Shown: positions 6,762-18,951 of the stretch, in pieces | How the letters are laid out: each line of letters starts with the position of its first letter | How positions within the stretch are numbered: position 1 is the first letter of the stretch | Virus record (IMG/VR): IMGVR_UViG_3300025030_000412 | Location: 1 to 24,095 of that record | DNA length: 24,095 nucleotides | Direction: 5' to 3' (one strand) | Origin: a virus | Notes under the pieces: generated by a model | Seen by the model: the letters and a program-made list of their open reading frames with translations, nothing else | Databases searched by the model: none | What the model was told of the DNA's origin: nothing | Made by a program: the position numbers and the translations under genes

Positions 6762-6971
6762 ATGTATTATGGATATTATATGCCACGCGAAGATGGTGAT
6801 TGGGATCTAGTTGCCGTGGTCGCAGATACAAATGAAATTGACGAAGATATTTCCGAAGCAGTAAAACTTGGAATTGACAGGGCTTTTGGTAGTCTCTATA
6901 AGATATTTGGCGAACCGTTTATCACAGAACAAGACGATCCCAATTTTCCACAAGTATGGAGTGTAAAATGA
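6762..6971 (+). CDS. 69-residue protein, unknown
   Basis: Starts at ATG 6762, after AAAGGATAATCAA. The sequence YYMPREDGDWDLVAVVADTNEIDED continues with a helix and FGEPFITEQDDPNFPQVW. It ends in an ATGA overlap with the interrupted SymE-like gene. Function is unknown. Confidence 0.65.
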   Translation: MYYGYYMPREDGDWDLVAVVADTNEIDEDISEAVKLGIDRAFGSLYKIFGEPFITEQDDPNFPQVWSVK

Positions 6972-7105
6972 CACCACAAAAACGTGATCGCACAACTAAA
7001 ATTGTCAATATTGTTGACGGACGTAGACAGTATCCATTTATGCGTTTGCGTGGGAAGTGGCTTGCGGAATTAGGATTTACCGAGGGCACCACTGCCACAT
7101 TATGA
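6968..7105 (+). pseudogene. SymE-like gene, 5' part, broken by an insertion
   Basis: This opens in an ATGA overlap and encodes 45 residues, including YPFMRLRGKWLAELGFTEGTTA, before a TGA at 7103-7105. The pattern R-L-x-G-K-W-L-x-x-x-G-F-x-x-G is that of the SymE-like (AbrB-fold) family. In that family the next element is a strand of the type V-x-V/I-x-I; here it is missing but is found at 7990, past the endonuclease gene (AITISSS...). The bases GCCA at 7094-7097 recur at 7990-7993, and joining at this repeat restores one frame. A truncated product could still be made. Whether RNA-level joining occurs is not known. Confidence 0.65.
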
Positions 7106-7111
7106 TATAAT
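7103..7111 (+). promoter_or_regulatory. extended -10 promoter of the endonuclease cassette
   Basis: TGATATAAT is a consensus -10 hexamer with the TGn extension. No good -35 is visible 16-18 bases upstream. Predicted transcription would begin near 7117-7119, at the first base of the pseudoknot. Confidence 0.45.
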
Positions 7112-7116
7112 CTCTA

Positions 7117-7198
7117 TATCTAAGGCATATGGTACAATAGAAAAATAACTCGTCAGTCCGCCATGTGCCTTAGATACACATAAATGGATTGACGAGTT
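7117..7198 (+). ncRNA. H-type RNA pseudoknot in the leader of the GIY-YIG gene
   Basis: Stem 1 pairs TATCTAAGGCATATGG (7117-7132) with CCATGTGCCTTAGATA (7161-7176): 16 pairs with one G-U. Stem 2 pairs AACTCGTCAGTCC (7147-7159), in the loop of stem 1, with GGATTGACGAGTT (7186-7198): 13 pairs with one G-U. The two stems interleave, which is an H-type pseudoknot. It ends 8 bases before the GGAG ribosome binding site, so a role in controlling endonuclease translation or RNA stability is plausible. It could also be part of an unrecognised ribozyme. Confidence 0.7.
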
Positions 7199-7214
7199 TA
7201 TTTTTGGAGTGATT

Positions 7215-7979
7215 ATGACAACTGGCATCTATCAAATAAGGAATAAGATTAATAAGAAGATATATATAGGATCTGCCATAAATATTGCCAGAAGATGGAA
7301 TGAGCACATTTTTAGACTTGGGAAACAAAAACACGGAAATCCTCATCTTCAATCAGTCTGGGACAAGTATGGACAAGATAATTTTGAATTTACTGTACTT
7401 GAAGAATGCGAGAAGGAAAACCTAATAGAACGAGAACAGTATTACTTGGATATACTGAAACCCAAATATAACATTTGCAGAAAAGCATATAGTTGCTTGG
7501 GTGTAAAGCGCACAGAGGAAACTCGTGCTAAAATGTCAGCAGCTCGAATAGGAAAACCACACATGTTTTTGGCTAAACCATATAGGTTAATGTCTATTAG
7601 TAAAAAAGGAAAAAAATTATCGGATGAAACTAAAAAGAAATTGTCAATAGCAAGGCGGCGCAGACCAGGAATTCCTCATACGCTAGAATCAAGAAAAAAA
7701 ATTAGTCTTTCCCTTATGGGAAGGACGGGTAGAAAACACAGTACTGAAACAAAAATGAAAATATCTCTTGGCAACAAGGGAAAAATTATGTCTTCTGAAG
7801 CCAAAGAAAAAATATCTAAGGCGAATAAAGGAAGGGTTTCGCCCAATAAAGGAAAGTCTATGTCTCTTGAACAGCGCAATAAAATATCCAAAGCGAATAA
7901 AGGAAAAAAACGTTCTTTAGAAATACGCCTAAAAATATCTGTTGCAATGAAAAAAATTCGACGTAAAAAATTCTCATAA
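7215..7979 (+). CDS. GIY-YIG homing endonuclease with about seven NUMOD3 repeats
   Basis: A 254-residue protein. The nuclease domain is at residues 1-95: GIYQIRN at 4-10, KIYIGSA at 15-21, Arg27 and His31 in RRWNEH, and the EREQYYLDILKPKYN segment with the metal-site Glu. From about residue 98 there are roughly seven NUMOD3-type helical DNA-binding repeats (RTEETRAKMS, LSDETKKKLS, HTLESRKKIS, HSTETKMKIS, MSSEAKEKIS, MSLEQRNKIS, RSLEIRLKIS), an unusually long array and very basic. ATG 7215 is preferred over GTG 7209 because GGAG at 7206-7209 is 5 bases upstream of it. It has its own promoter and pseudoknot leader and splits a SymE-like gene. Confidence 0.92.
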   Translation: MTTGIYQIRNKINKKIYIGSAINIARRWNEHIFRLGKQKHGNPHLQSVWDKYGQDNFEFTVLEECEKENLIEREQYYLDILKPKYNICRKAYSCLGVKRTEETRAKMSAARIGKPHMFLAKPYRLMSISKKGKKLSDETKKKLSIARRRRPGIPHTLESRKKISLSLMGRTGRKHSTETKMKISLGNKGKIMSSEAKEKISKANKGRVSPNKGKSMSLEQRNKISKANKGKKRSLEIRLKISVAMKKIRRKKFS

Positions 7980-7989
7980 TAGTCCAGAC

Positions 7990-8130
7990 GCCATTACAAT
8001 TTCTTCAAGTCCGCCCATGTTGGTTAGGCAAGAACTTACGCCTATCGAAGTAATCAAAGCAGAATATACTAAACTTGGTATTCCGACTACTGAAAAGACA
8101 AAGAAGTATCAAGTTACTATACTTTCATAA
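7990..8130 (+). pseudogene. SymE-like gene, 3' part
   Basis: The frame from GCC ATT ACA at 7990 encodes AITISSSPPMLVRQELTPIE and ends KYQVTILS before TAA at 8128-8130. It supplies the beta-strand expected after GFTEGTT in the 5' part, and joining at the shared GCCA keeps the frame. On its own it could only start at ATG 8017, which has no ribosome binding site, so it is probably not expressed unless the two halves are joined. Confidence 0.6.
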
Positions 8131-9049: not shown

Positions 9050-9079
9050 TTGAATTTATGCAATATATTGTGTTATAAT
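9050..9079 (+). promoter_or_regulatory. sigma70-type promoter of the HNH gene
   Basis: TTGAAT (-35), an 18-base spacer, and TGTTATAAT, a perfect -10 with the TGn extension (TATAAT at 9074-9079). The expected start site, 6-8 bases downstream, falls on or next to ATG 9086, so the transcript may be leaderless. Confidence 0.6.
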
Positions 9080-9085
9080 GACGAT

Positions 9086-9646
9086 ATGAATAAGTCAAAT
9101 CATTGTTTAGACGATCTTACAGGAAAAAAATTTGGGTCTTGGACCGTCTTGTCTAGGTCCAATAAAATTAGTGGCGGAAATACGTATTGGAATTGTCTAT
9201 GCAATCAATGTGGAAAAACATTTCCAATACAACGATGTTCTCTTATTTTCAAGACCAGTAAACAATGCCGAGAATGCCAGAGGGTGCCTAAATACATAGG
9301 ACATATATATAAACACTACTACGTACTAGTCCAGAAAAGAGCACTGAAAAGAAAACAAGAATTTTCAATTTCAATAGAATATTTAAATACCTTATGGGAA
9401 CAACAACAAGGTAAATGTGCTTTATCAAAACTGCCAATAGCTTTTCAAGATACAGGTAAAGCAAAAGGAACAGCGTCACTTGATAGAATAGATAGCAACA
9501 AAGGTTATATAAAAGGAAATGTTCAGTGGGTGCATAAAGACATAAATATTATGAAGAATTCTTTTATTGTTAAAGAATTCATATATCTGTGTAAAGCAGT
9601 TGTAGAAACGCAATGTTCAATTGAAAACTATTCTAAAGGAGAATAA
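9086..9646 (+). CDS. HNH homing endonuclease with N-terminal zinc fingers
   Basis: A 186-residue protein from ATG 9086 (MNKSNHCLDDLTGKKFGSWTV). The N-terminal half has DLTGKKFGSWTVL and the Cys set CLCNQC ... CREC, a DNA-binding zinc module seen in phage HNH proteins. The HNH part is LWEQQQGKCALSKLPI ... ASLDRIDSNKGYIKGNVQWVHKDINIMKNSF. The frame is open to a TTG at 9050, but that codon lies within the promoter and lacks a ribosome binding site. ATG 9086 also has no Shine-Dalgarno sequence, in line with a leaderless message. It sits between two small phage genes as a free-standing mobile gene. Confidence 0.88.
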   Translation: MNKSNHCLDDLTGKKFGSWTVLSRSNKISGGNTYWNCLCNQCGKTFPIQRCSLIFKTSKQCRECQRVPKYIGHIYKHYYVLVQKRALKRKQEFSISIEYLNTLWEQQQGKCALSKLPIAFQDTGKAKGTASLDRIDSNKGYIKGNVQWVHKDINIMKNSFIVKEFIYLCKAVVETQCSIENYSKGE

Positions 9647-18263: not shown

Positions 18264-18272
18264 TGATATAAT
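18264..18272 (+). promoter_or_regulatory. extended -10 promoter of the Rad52-like gene
   Basis: TGATATAAT, the perfect TGn-TATAAT form, in the 56-base gap before the gene at 18301; TCGAAT at 18246-18251 is the best -35, at a short spacing of 15. The start site would be near 18279, giving a leader of about 22 bases with AAGGAGAACAGA. Confidence 0.5.
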
Positions 18273-18300
18273 TGTTCTATATACAAAAAAGGAGAACAGA

Positions 18301-18951
18301 ATGGAAAAAAACATCATTGTTGGCGAAATTATGGATACACAGGTTTCGCCCGAGCAACTAAAAGCAATTCAGGCTTTACGCACTGCACAGATCCCAAAAG
18401 AACACATTAAGAAACATCCCGGTAAAGGTGGCAAGACTTTCAGTTTTGTTCCTCATACCATTGCTACAGATACCCTGAATAGTGCTTTGGGTATGAATTG
18501 GGATTGGGAAATTCTTGATTACAATCTCTATCCAGATAACAGCGCCGTCGCCCGTGGCAAATTAACCGTTCACTGGACAGACCGGGACGGCAAAGAACGA
18601 GAACGAAAAGTTACCGAAATGGGTGGTTTTGATGGTAAGGGCGATAAACCCACTTCCGCCTACGTAGTTCTAAGTGCTTGTAGTCGCGCTTTACTACGTT
18701 GTATGCTTCGGATGTTCGGATATGGACGTGAACTCTATCCAGATGATGAGGGTGGTCTTACTACCGAACAAGCCTGGAACACTCTTGAGCAGTACGCCAA
18801 AACCAAGAAGGTTACGAAAGAAGAACTTGTTGTGGCTATCAAAACTAGTGGTATTACCAAAGATACTTTGGTTGATCGCTTTGAAGAAGCGTATGCCCTA
18901 GTACAGACTATTGTTGACTCTAAAACAAAGTCTGCGGTACCTGCTTTATAA
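18301..18951 (+). CDS. Rad52-family single-strand annealing protein
   Basis: A 216-residue protein from ATG 18301 (strong ribosome binding site; the frame is open to 18238). The core reads AQIPKEHIKKHPGKGGKTFSFVPHTIATDTLNSALGMNWDWEILDY, the Rad52/22 signature (P-x-x-x-I/V-x-x-x-P-G-K-G-G-x-x-x-x-Y/F-V-P, then I-x-x-L-N-x-x-L-G). After it come GKLTVHW, the GGFDGKGDKPTSAYVVLSACSRALLRCMLRMFGYGRELYPDD region typical of phage Rad52 proteins, and a helical C-terminal tail. It should anneal complementary single strands during recombination-dependent replication or repair, with the nuclease at 2849 the likely partner. Confidence 0.88.
   Translation: MEKNIIVGEIMDTQVSPEQLKAIQALRTAQIPKEHIKKHPGKGGKTFSFVPHTIATDTLNSALGMNWDWEILDYNLYPDNSAVARGKLTVHWTDRDGKERERKVTEMGGFDGKGDKPTSAYVVLSACSRALLRCMLRMFGYGRELYPDDEGGLTTEQAWNTLEQYAKTKKVTKEELVVAIKTSGITKDTLVDRFEEAYALVQTIVDSKTKSAVPAL

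Follow-up and report, generated by a model that had tools for sequence, protein, structure and literature searches.

A leader of two interleaved helices ahead of a mobile GIY-YIG homing endonuclease gene in a phage

The Endonuclease Cassette and the Interrupted SymE-Like Gene

The DNA analyzed here (IMG/VR record IMGVR_UViG_3300025030_000412, positions 1 to 24,095; hereafter the window) comes from a 24-kb virus record; hardly any sequenced phage is related to its lineage. On its plus strand, positions 7215–7979 encode a homing endonuclease of 254 amino acids (PHROG 314), which combines a GIY-YIG domain with NUMOD3 (Pfam matches of 3.2e-14 and 2.4e-24, respectively) and sits at a locus that a relative has uninterrupted. 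The gene is part of an inserted cassette (7096–7979, plus strand, borders approximate), composed of a putative promoter, a structured leader and the endonuclease ORF, and this cassette splits a SymE-like gene of the same strand. The N-terminal part of the latter (6968–7102; MTPQKRDRTTKIVNIVDGRRQYPFMRLRGKWLAELGFTEGTTATL) runs into a stop codon inside the cassette and matches the Pfam family SymE_toxin just under the cut-off (E 8.8e-6, 26.2 bits for a cut-off of 29), while the C-terminal part (7978–8130; NSPDAITISSSPPMLVRQELTPIEVIKAEY...) has no internal stop, its first in-frame ATG lying at 8017 without a clear Shine-Dalgarno sequence.

An uninterrupted homologue of the SymE-like gene, 77% identical to a query joined from both parts, is found in the 83-kb phage contig IMGVR_UViG_3300025154_000006 (L018:4004–4285). 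Aligned with L018, the DNA of the window matches as far as 7095 and again from 7985, which, along with the continuity of the L018 gene, indicates that promoter, leader and endonuclease were inserted as one. In the comparison with L018, both halves show fewer amino-acid changes than silent ones (pN/pS of 0.12/0.62 and 0.05/0.41), most of which low amino-acid change may predate the insertion. An earlier reading of the window, made from its sequence only, had assigned the leader to the endonuclease, which is supported here, and had overlooked the split of the SymE-like gene. Elsewhere in the window, positions 1816–2637 encode another probable homing endonuclease, with a GIY-YIG-like start and a weakly matching AP2-type C-terminal domain, which overlaps the preceding gene by 4 bases.

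Anatomy of the Leader

Two helices of the plus strand, located by a helix search and by comparison with a second copy of the cassette (see below), occupy the leader. Stem 1 (S1) pairs 7117–7132 with 7161–7176 and has 16 pairs, one of them G-U (17 when the terminal pair 7133/7160 is counted). The arms of stem 2 (S2) lie at 7141–7159 and 7186–7205; its core (7147–7159 with 7186–7198) has 13 pairs, again with one G-U (14 with the terminal pair 7160/7185), and is prolonged past one bulged base by an A-rich extension, AAAAATAA (7141–7148), that pairs with the U-rich tract TTATTTTT (7198–7205). A loop of 9 nt (loop 3, 7177–7185) separates the 3′ arms of the two stems. The U-rich tract abuts the Shine-Dalgarno sequence GGAG (7206–7209, plus strand), which begins 8 bases past the end of the S2 core and precedes the ATG at 7215; both stems end short of GGAG, which is itself left unpaired by S2. 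The order of the arms (5′-S1, S2, S1, S2-3′) is the interleaving that characterizes an H-type pseudoknot. The interleaved stems of 16 and 13 pairs announced by the sequence-only reading were thus located at 7117–7176 and 7147–7198, and the distance of 8 bases that it had given between the structure and the ribosome binding site agrees with the end of the S2 core.

Helices were scored with weights of 3 (G-C), 2 (A-T) and 0.5 (G-T), and an interleaved pair was retained when both of its helices reached at least 28. At this threshold, the window contains one such pair, while none occurs in the 3.1 Mb obtained by dinucleotide-shuffling the entire window 130 times. Moreover, the only interleaved pairs found at the same threshold in 1.74 Mb of (redundant) phage DNA are those of the window leader and of its relative L020/L019. 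The interleaved stems are therefore real, and the earlier claim that helices of such length would hardly interleave by chance is borne out.

A Second Copy of the Cassette and the Covariation of the Stems

Searching with the conserved 5′ part of the endonuclease DNA retrieved a second copy, L020, which lies in the same 83-kb phage as the uninterrupted SymE-like gene, but at another site, where a gene related to positions 2634–2849 of the window begins; a further sequence, L019, differs from L020 by 1 base in 823. The layout of L020 is that of the window: a promoter-like TGATATAATCT, S1 (TATCGAGATTGATTATGCACAG/CTGTGCATCAGTCTCGATA), S2 (CAACGTCCGCC/GGTGGACGTTG) and the start codon, with 14 nt from the TG of the promoter to S1 and 16 nt from the end of the S2 core to the ATG in both leaders. 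The loop 1 sequence TGNTACAATA is common to the two, and in both S2 can be extended as far as the Shine-Dalgarno sequence. The endonuclease ORF of L020 (668–1352) is interrupted by an in-frame TAG some 151 codons from its start, so it may be in decay.

The letters of the stems have been replaced, since the identity of the four arms between window and L020 (5/16, 5/16, 2/11 and 3/11) is at chance level, but the pairing has been kept. Among 27 compared pairs, 19 are changed on both sides, one on one side and seven are unchanged, with none broken, and sliding one arm by 1–3 positions abolishes the pairing. The second cassette thereby answers the covariance check that had been proposed for the leader. 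In addition, each of the four imperfect pairs present in window and L020 is a G-U pair of the plus strand, which fits an RNA of that strand rather than a DNA palindrome. Although drawn from a single comparison of two distinct leaders, this pattern of letters is strong evidence that selection acts on RNA pairing. The 7-mer GTCCGCC also occurs in both leaders, but in a different pairing register, and was taken as a chance match.

Two other structures were noticed in the related phage DNA. Directly ahead of a Shine-Dalgarno sequence (AAAGGAG), L020 has a 13-bp hairpin at 454–487 (CCAGAGGGCGCTT...AAGCGCCCTCTGG), which the corresponding segment of the window lacks. Furthermore, L056 10251–10375 (G001:C1, ~70250–70375) holds an attC-like site with interleaved stems (GCCCAAC ... 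GTTAGGC), directly upstream of a DNA methyltransferase-like gene, which is possibly an integron cassette of the related phage.

Promoter-Like Sites and Distribution of the Leader

The leader is preceded by an extended −10 promoter-like site, P1 (TGATATAAT, 7103–7110, plus strand), whose −10 hexamer TATAAT (7105–7110) places the predicted +1 at ~7117, on the first base of S1. Its counterpart in L020, TGATATAATCT (L020:531–541), has the same register, and the start site formerly predicted at the first base of stem 1 agrees with the position of this −10. A second extended −10-like motif, P2 (TGGTACAAT, 7130–7138, plus strand), lies in loop 1, of which the motif TGNTACAAT is the conserved part in window and L020; its predicted +1 (~7145) falls at the 5′ arm of S2. 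The counterpart of P2 in L020 is TGTTACAAT, with a −35 (TTGATT) at 17 nt, whereas the P2 of the window shows no recognizable −35. Judging from these motifs, both P1 and P2 may serve as promoters. The sequence-only reading is supported in its description of a promoter-proximal leader, but the second promoter-like TGNTACAAT had escaped it.

Similar sites exist elsewhere. Another extended −10 (TGTTATAAT, 9071–9079) stands directly ahead of an HNH endonuclease gene (~9050–9646), and a comparable site (6122) comes before an HNH gene in L053. A TGATATAAT promoter-like site with a short unstructured leader (18264–18310) precedes a non-endonuclease gene and is conserved in the related phage (L053 16232).

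The leader is not a regular part of such genes. It is lacking in endonuclease genes that are 66–70% identical in protein, two of which (L001 and L035) share the first bases of the gene, in the other copies of the same phage, and in some 90 additional GIY-YIG loci taken from viral contigs and genome contigs. Likewise, blastn and tblastn searches against phages returned no relative of the leader, and searches with DNA patterns (promoter and loop motifs, stem 2) gave, among the matches listed, only chance ones besides L019/L020. L022, considered as a relative, proved to be an unrelated palindrome in a GC-rich phage. The leader is thus a trait of a small cassette subfamily; its attribution to the endonuclease mRNA is supported, but its absence from most related endonuclease genes had been overlooked.

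Pseudoknot or Two-State Switch

The structure had been described as an H-type pseudoknot. By A-form span, the loops of the window are long enough (at least 8 nt for loop 1, where 7 are needed, and 9 nt for loop 3, where 6 are needed), hence a pseudoknot is geometrically allowed, and the idea that it would be sterically impossible was dropped. The energies of S1 and S2 in the window are similar (−25.4 and −26.9), and forming a pseudoknot costs a penalty of about 9–10 kcal/mol. On rough estimates that add this penalty to the helix energies, the pseudoknot of the window would be favored over the best nested fold by ~5 kcal/mol, whereas in L020 the two would be nearly tied. Nevertheless, kinetics make it hard to wind more than one turn of S2 through a loop that S1 has closed, so that a switch in which S1 forms early and S2 later is just as plausible. 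The interleaved helices and the loop spans are compatible with the earlier description, as well as with two alternative hairpins.

The predicted cost of opening the translation start site is 3.0 kcal/mol in the S1 state and 3.7 in the S2 state for the window, and 4.4 and 7.8 for L020: the shift in accessibility from S1 to S2 has the same direction in both leaders and is weak in the window. Read-through RNA, and it alone, can form weak extra helices over the start codon (7105–7111/7211–7217 in the window, 512–520/665–673 in L020), and these would add a layer of the T4 kind; yet such RNA is not consistently predicted to be more closed at the start site.

Comparison with Known Leaders

The closest known systems are found in T4-type phages, which control I-TevI, I-TevII, I-TevIII, segB and mobE by an RNA fold that covers the ribosome binding site in read-through RNA only (PMC2988022). 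They share with the window leader a structured RNA and a promoter of its own directly ahead of a phage homing endonuclease gene (I-TevI, I-TevII, I-TevIII, segB and Aeh1 mobE; PMC2988022, PMC3014915), the promoter being beside or within the 5′ arm of the structure, and, should our proposal be right, an action on translation start. The anatomy differs. In those phages, the ribosome binding site is paired within a single hairpin that late transcripts do not have, whereas here two helices interleave and the Shine-Dalgarno sequence is unpaired; the structure of the window lies wholly downstream of the predicted start, and its promoter is sigma-70-like instead of T4 late. Transcripts from P1 would keep both arms of S1 and S2 and lose the weak extra helix only, in contrast to the loss of an arm seen in the T4-type hairpins.

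Other leaders resemble it in part. In seg43 of Aeromonas phage 25, a strong hairpin is located just upstream of the ribosome binding site and not over it (PMC2988022); this is a single hairpin without an interleaved partner, whose function is likewise putative, as opposed to the two interleaved helices of the window. The leader of gene 32 in T4, T2 and RB69 has the same H-type topology upstream of a start codon in a phage mRNA leader, and in T4 its short pseudoknot serves autocontrol (PMC3014915), but its helices are short and bound by gp32, while those of the window have 16 and 13 pairs and precede an unrelated gene. As to the protein, free-standing phage GIY-YIG endonucleases (seg family, PHROG 314) belong to the same family as that of the window, and most relatives are without the leader, even L001 and L035 at 66–70% identity. 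Altogether, the window leader resembles the known endonuclease and gene 32 leaders in place and in its probable purpose, with a different anatomy.

Proposed Function and Alternative Explanations

Sequence and comparison show the helices, their covariation, their fixed spacing to the predicted +1 and to the start codon, and the nature of the cassette. From there, we infer use of the promoter and a function at the RNA level, with translation, not decay or termination, as the controlled step. We give about an even chance to the proposal that the leader is a cis-acting control limiting or timing the translation of the homing endonuclease. The RNA would begin at the base of S1, making S1 a 5′-terminal helix that would fold first while transcription proceeds; S2 would then fold beside the Shine-Dalgarno sequence, either with S1, as an H-type pseudoknot, or in its place; and the translation start of the endonuclease would be limited or timed by the leader.

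Among the alternatives, a stabilizer of the 5′ end is unlikely. P1 and P2 would each start an RNA at the base of a long hairpin, whose paired end resists decay, and the interleaving would be a by-product of the two close starts. In both leaders the predicted +1 of P1 does fall on the S1 base and that of P2 on the S2 base, TGNTACAAT is conserved in loop 1 and the P2 of L020 has its −35; however, P1 and P2 are predicted promoters, the window P2 is devoid of a recognizable −35, and one hairpin would be enough. We consider it more unlikely still that the leader is a transcription attenuator, S2 and the U-rich tract being terminator-like and S1 an anti-terminator that sets read-through into the endonuclease gene. 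S2 is indeed followed by TTATTTTT in the window and TTTTATT in L020, and the two stems of the window have similar energies, but an S2 loop of 26–43 nt is long for an intrinsic terminator, a terminator scan (restricted to loops of 3–8) found none in the window or L020, and the U tract of the window can be taken up by pairing with AAAAATAA.

A DNA operator is very improbable: although autorepression by I-TevI at its late promoter is known (PMC2988022) and the endonuclease might similarly bind the interleaved inverted repeats, the similarity of the leader to the empty insertion site (13/20) is that of shuffled controls (12–15), every imperfect pair is G-U when read on one strand, as fits RNA, and arms of 16–19 bp are long for an operator. 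Still less probable is a self-splicing intron or other ribozyme that would excise the cassette from the mRNA of the SymE-like gene. Introns often house GIY-YIG endonucleases, and the cassette splits an otherwise open gene, both halves of which have few amino-acid changes. Yet Rfam gives no match to the leader, whether at gathering or at relaxed thresholds, the stop codon of the endonuclease touches the remainder of the gene, leaving no 3′ room for a core, and L020 does not have the rest of the gene it interrupts, which leaves no partner for splicing. A group I intron was rejected, there being ~110 nt 5′ of the ORF, almost none 3′ of it and no P3-P7-P8 core, as was an HDV-like ribozyme, for which the window lacks a P3 hairpin, the 5′ arm of P2 being separated from the 3′ arm of P1 by just 0–1 nt. 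The suggestion of an unknown ribozyme thus finds no support, while the promoter-proximal, structured leader of the sequence-only reading is supported. Finally, a guide or antisense RNA acting in trans is the least credible of these explanations. It would account for the complementarity, with one mismatch, of ACACATAAATGGAT (7176–7189, 14 nt) to the SymE-like gene 130 nt upstream (7032–7045), but this inverted match is probably due to chance, L020 has no comparable one, and the longest matches of either leader to the phage genomes are no better than those of shuffled leaders. All in all, a regulatory leader is plausible, and a ribozyme or intron unlikely.

Implications for Phage Homing Endonucleases

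Homing endonucleases of phages must fit their expression to the program of the host phage, a need known to be served by a hairpin that covers the ribosome binding site. If the leader described here does control translation, this control would be portable, since the promoter and the two-helix leader move with the gene into different sites. It is a tentative and rather doubtful suggestion that the leader represents a new class in mobile genes, i.e., a full-length two-helix pseudoknot or switch that a homing endonuclease gene carries along and whose pairing, start-site register and spacing to the start codon are kept while the letters of the stems are replaced. Perhaps this turnover keeps co-resident cassettes from recombining or cross-pairing. 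With its letters almost wholly replaced and its pairing preserved, the structure lends itself to tests by simple compensatory mutants.
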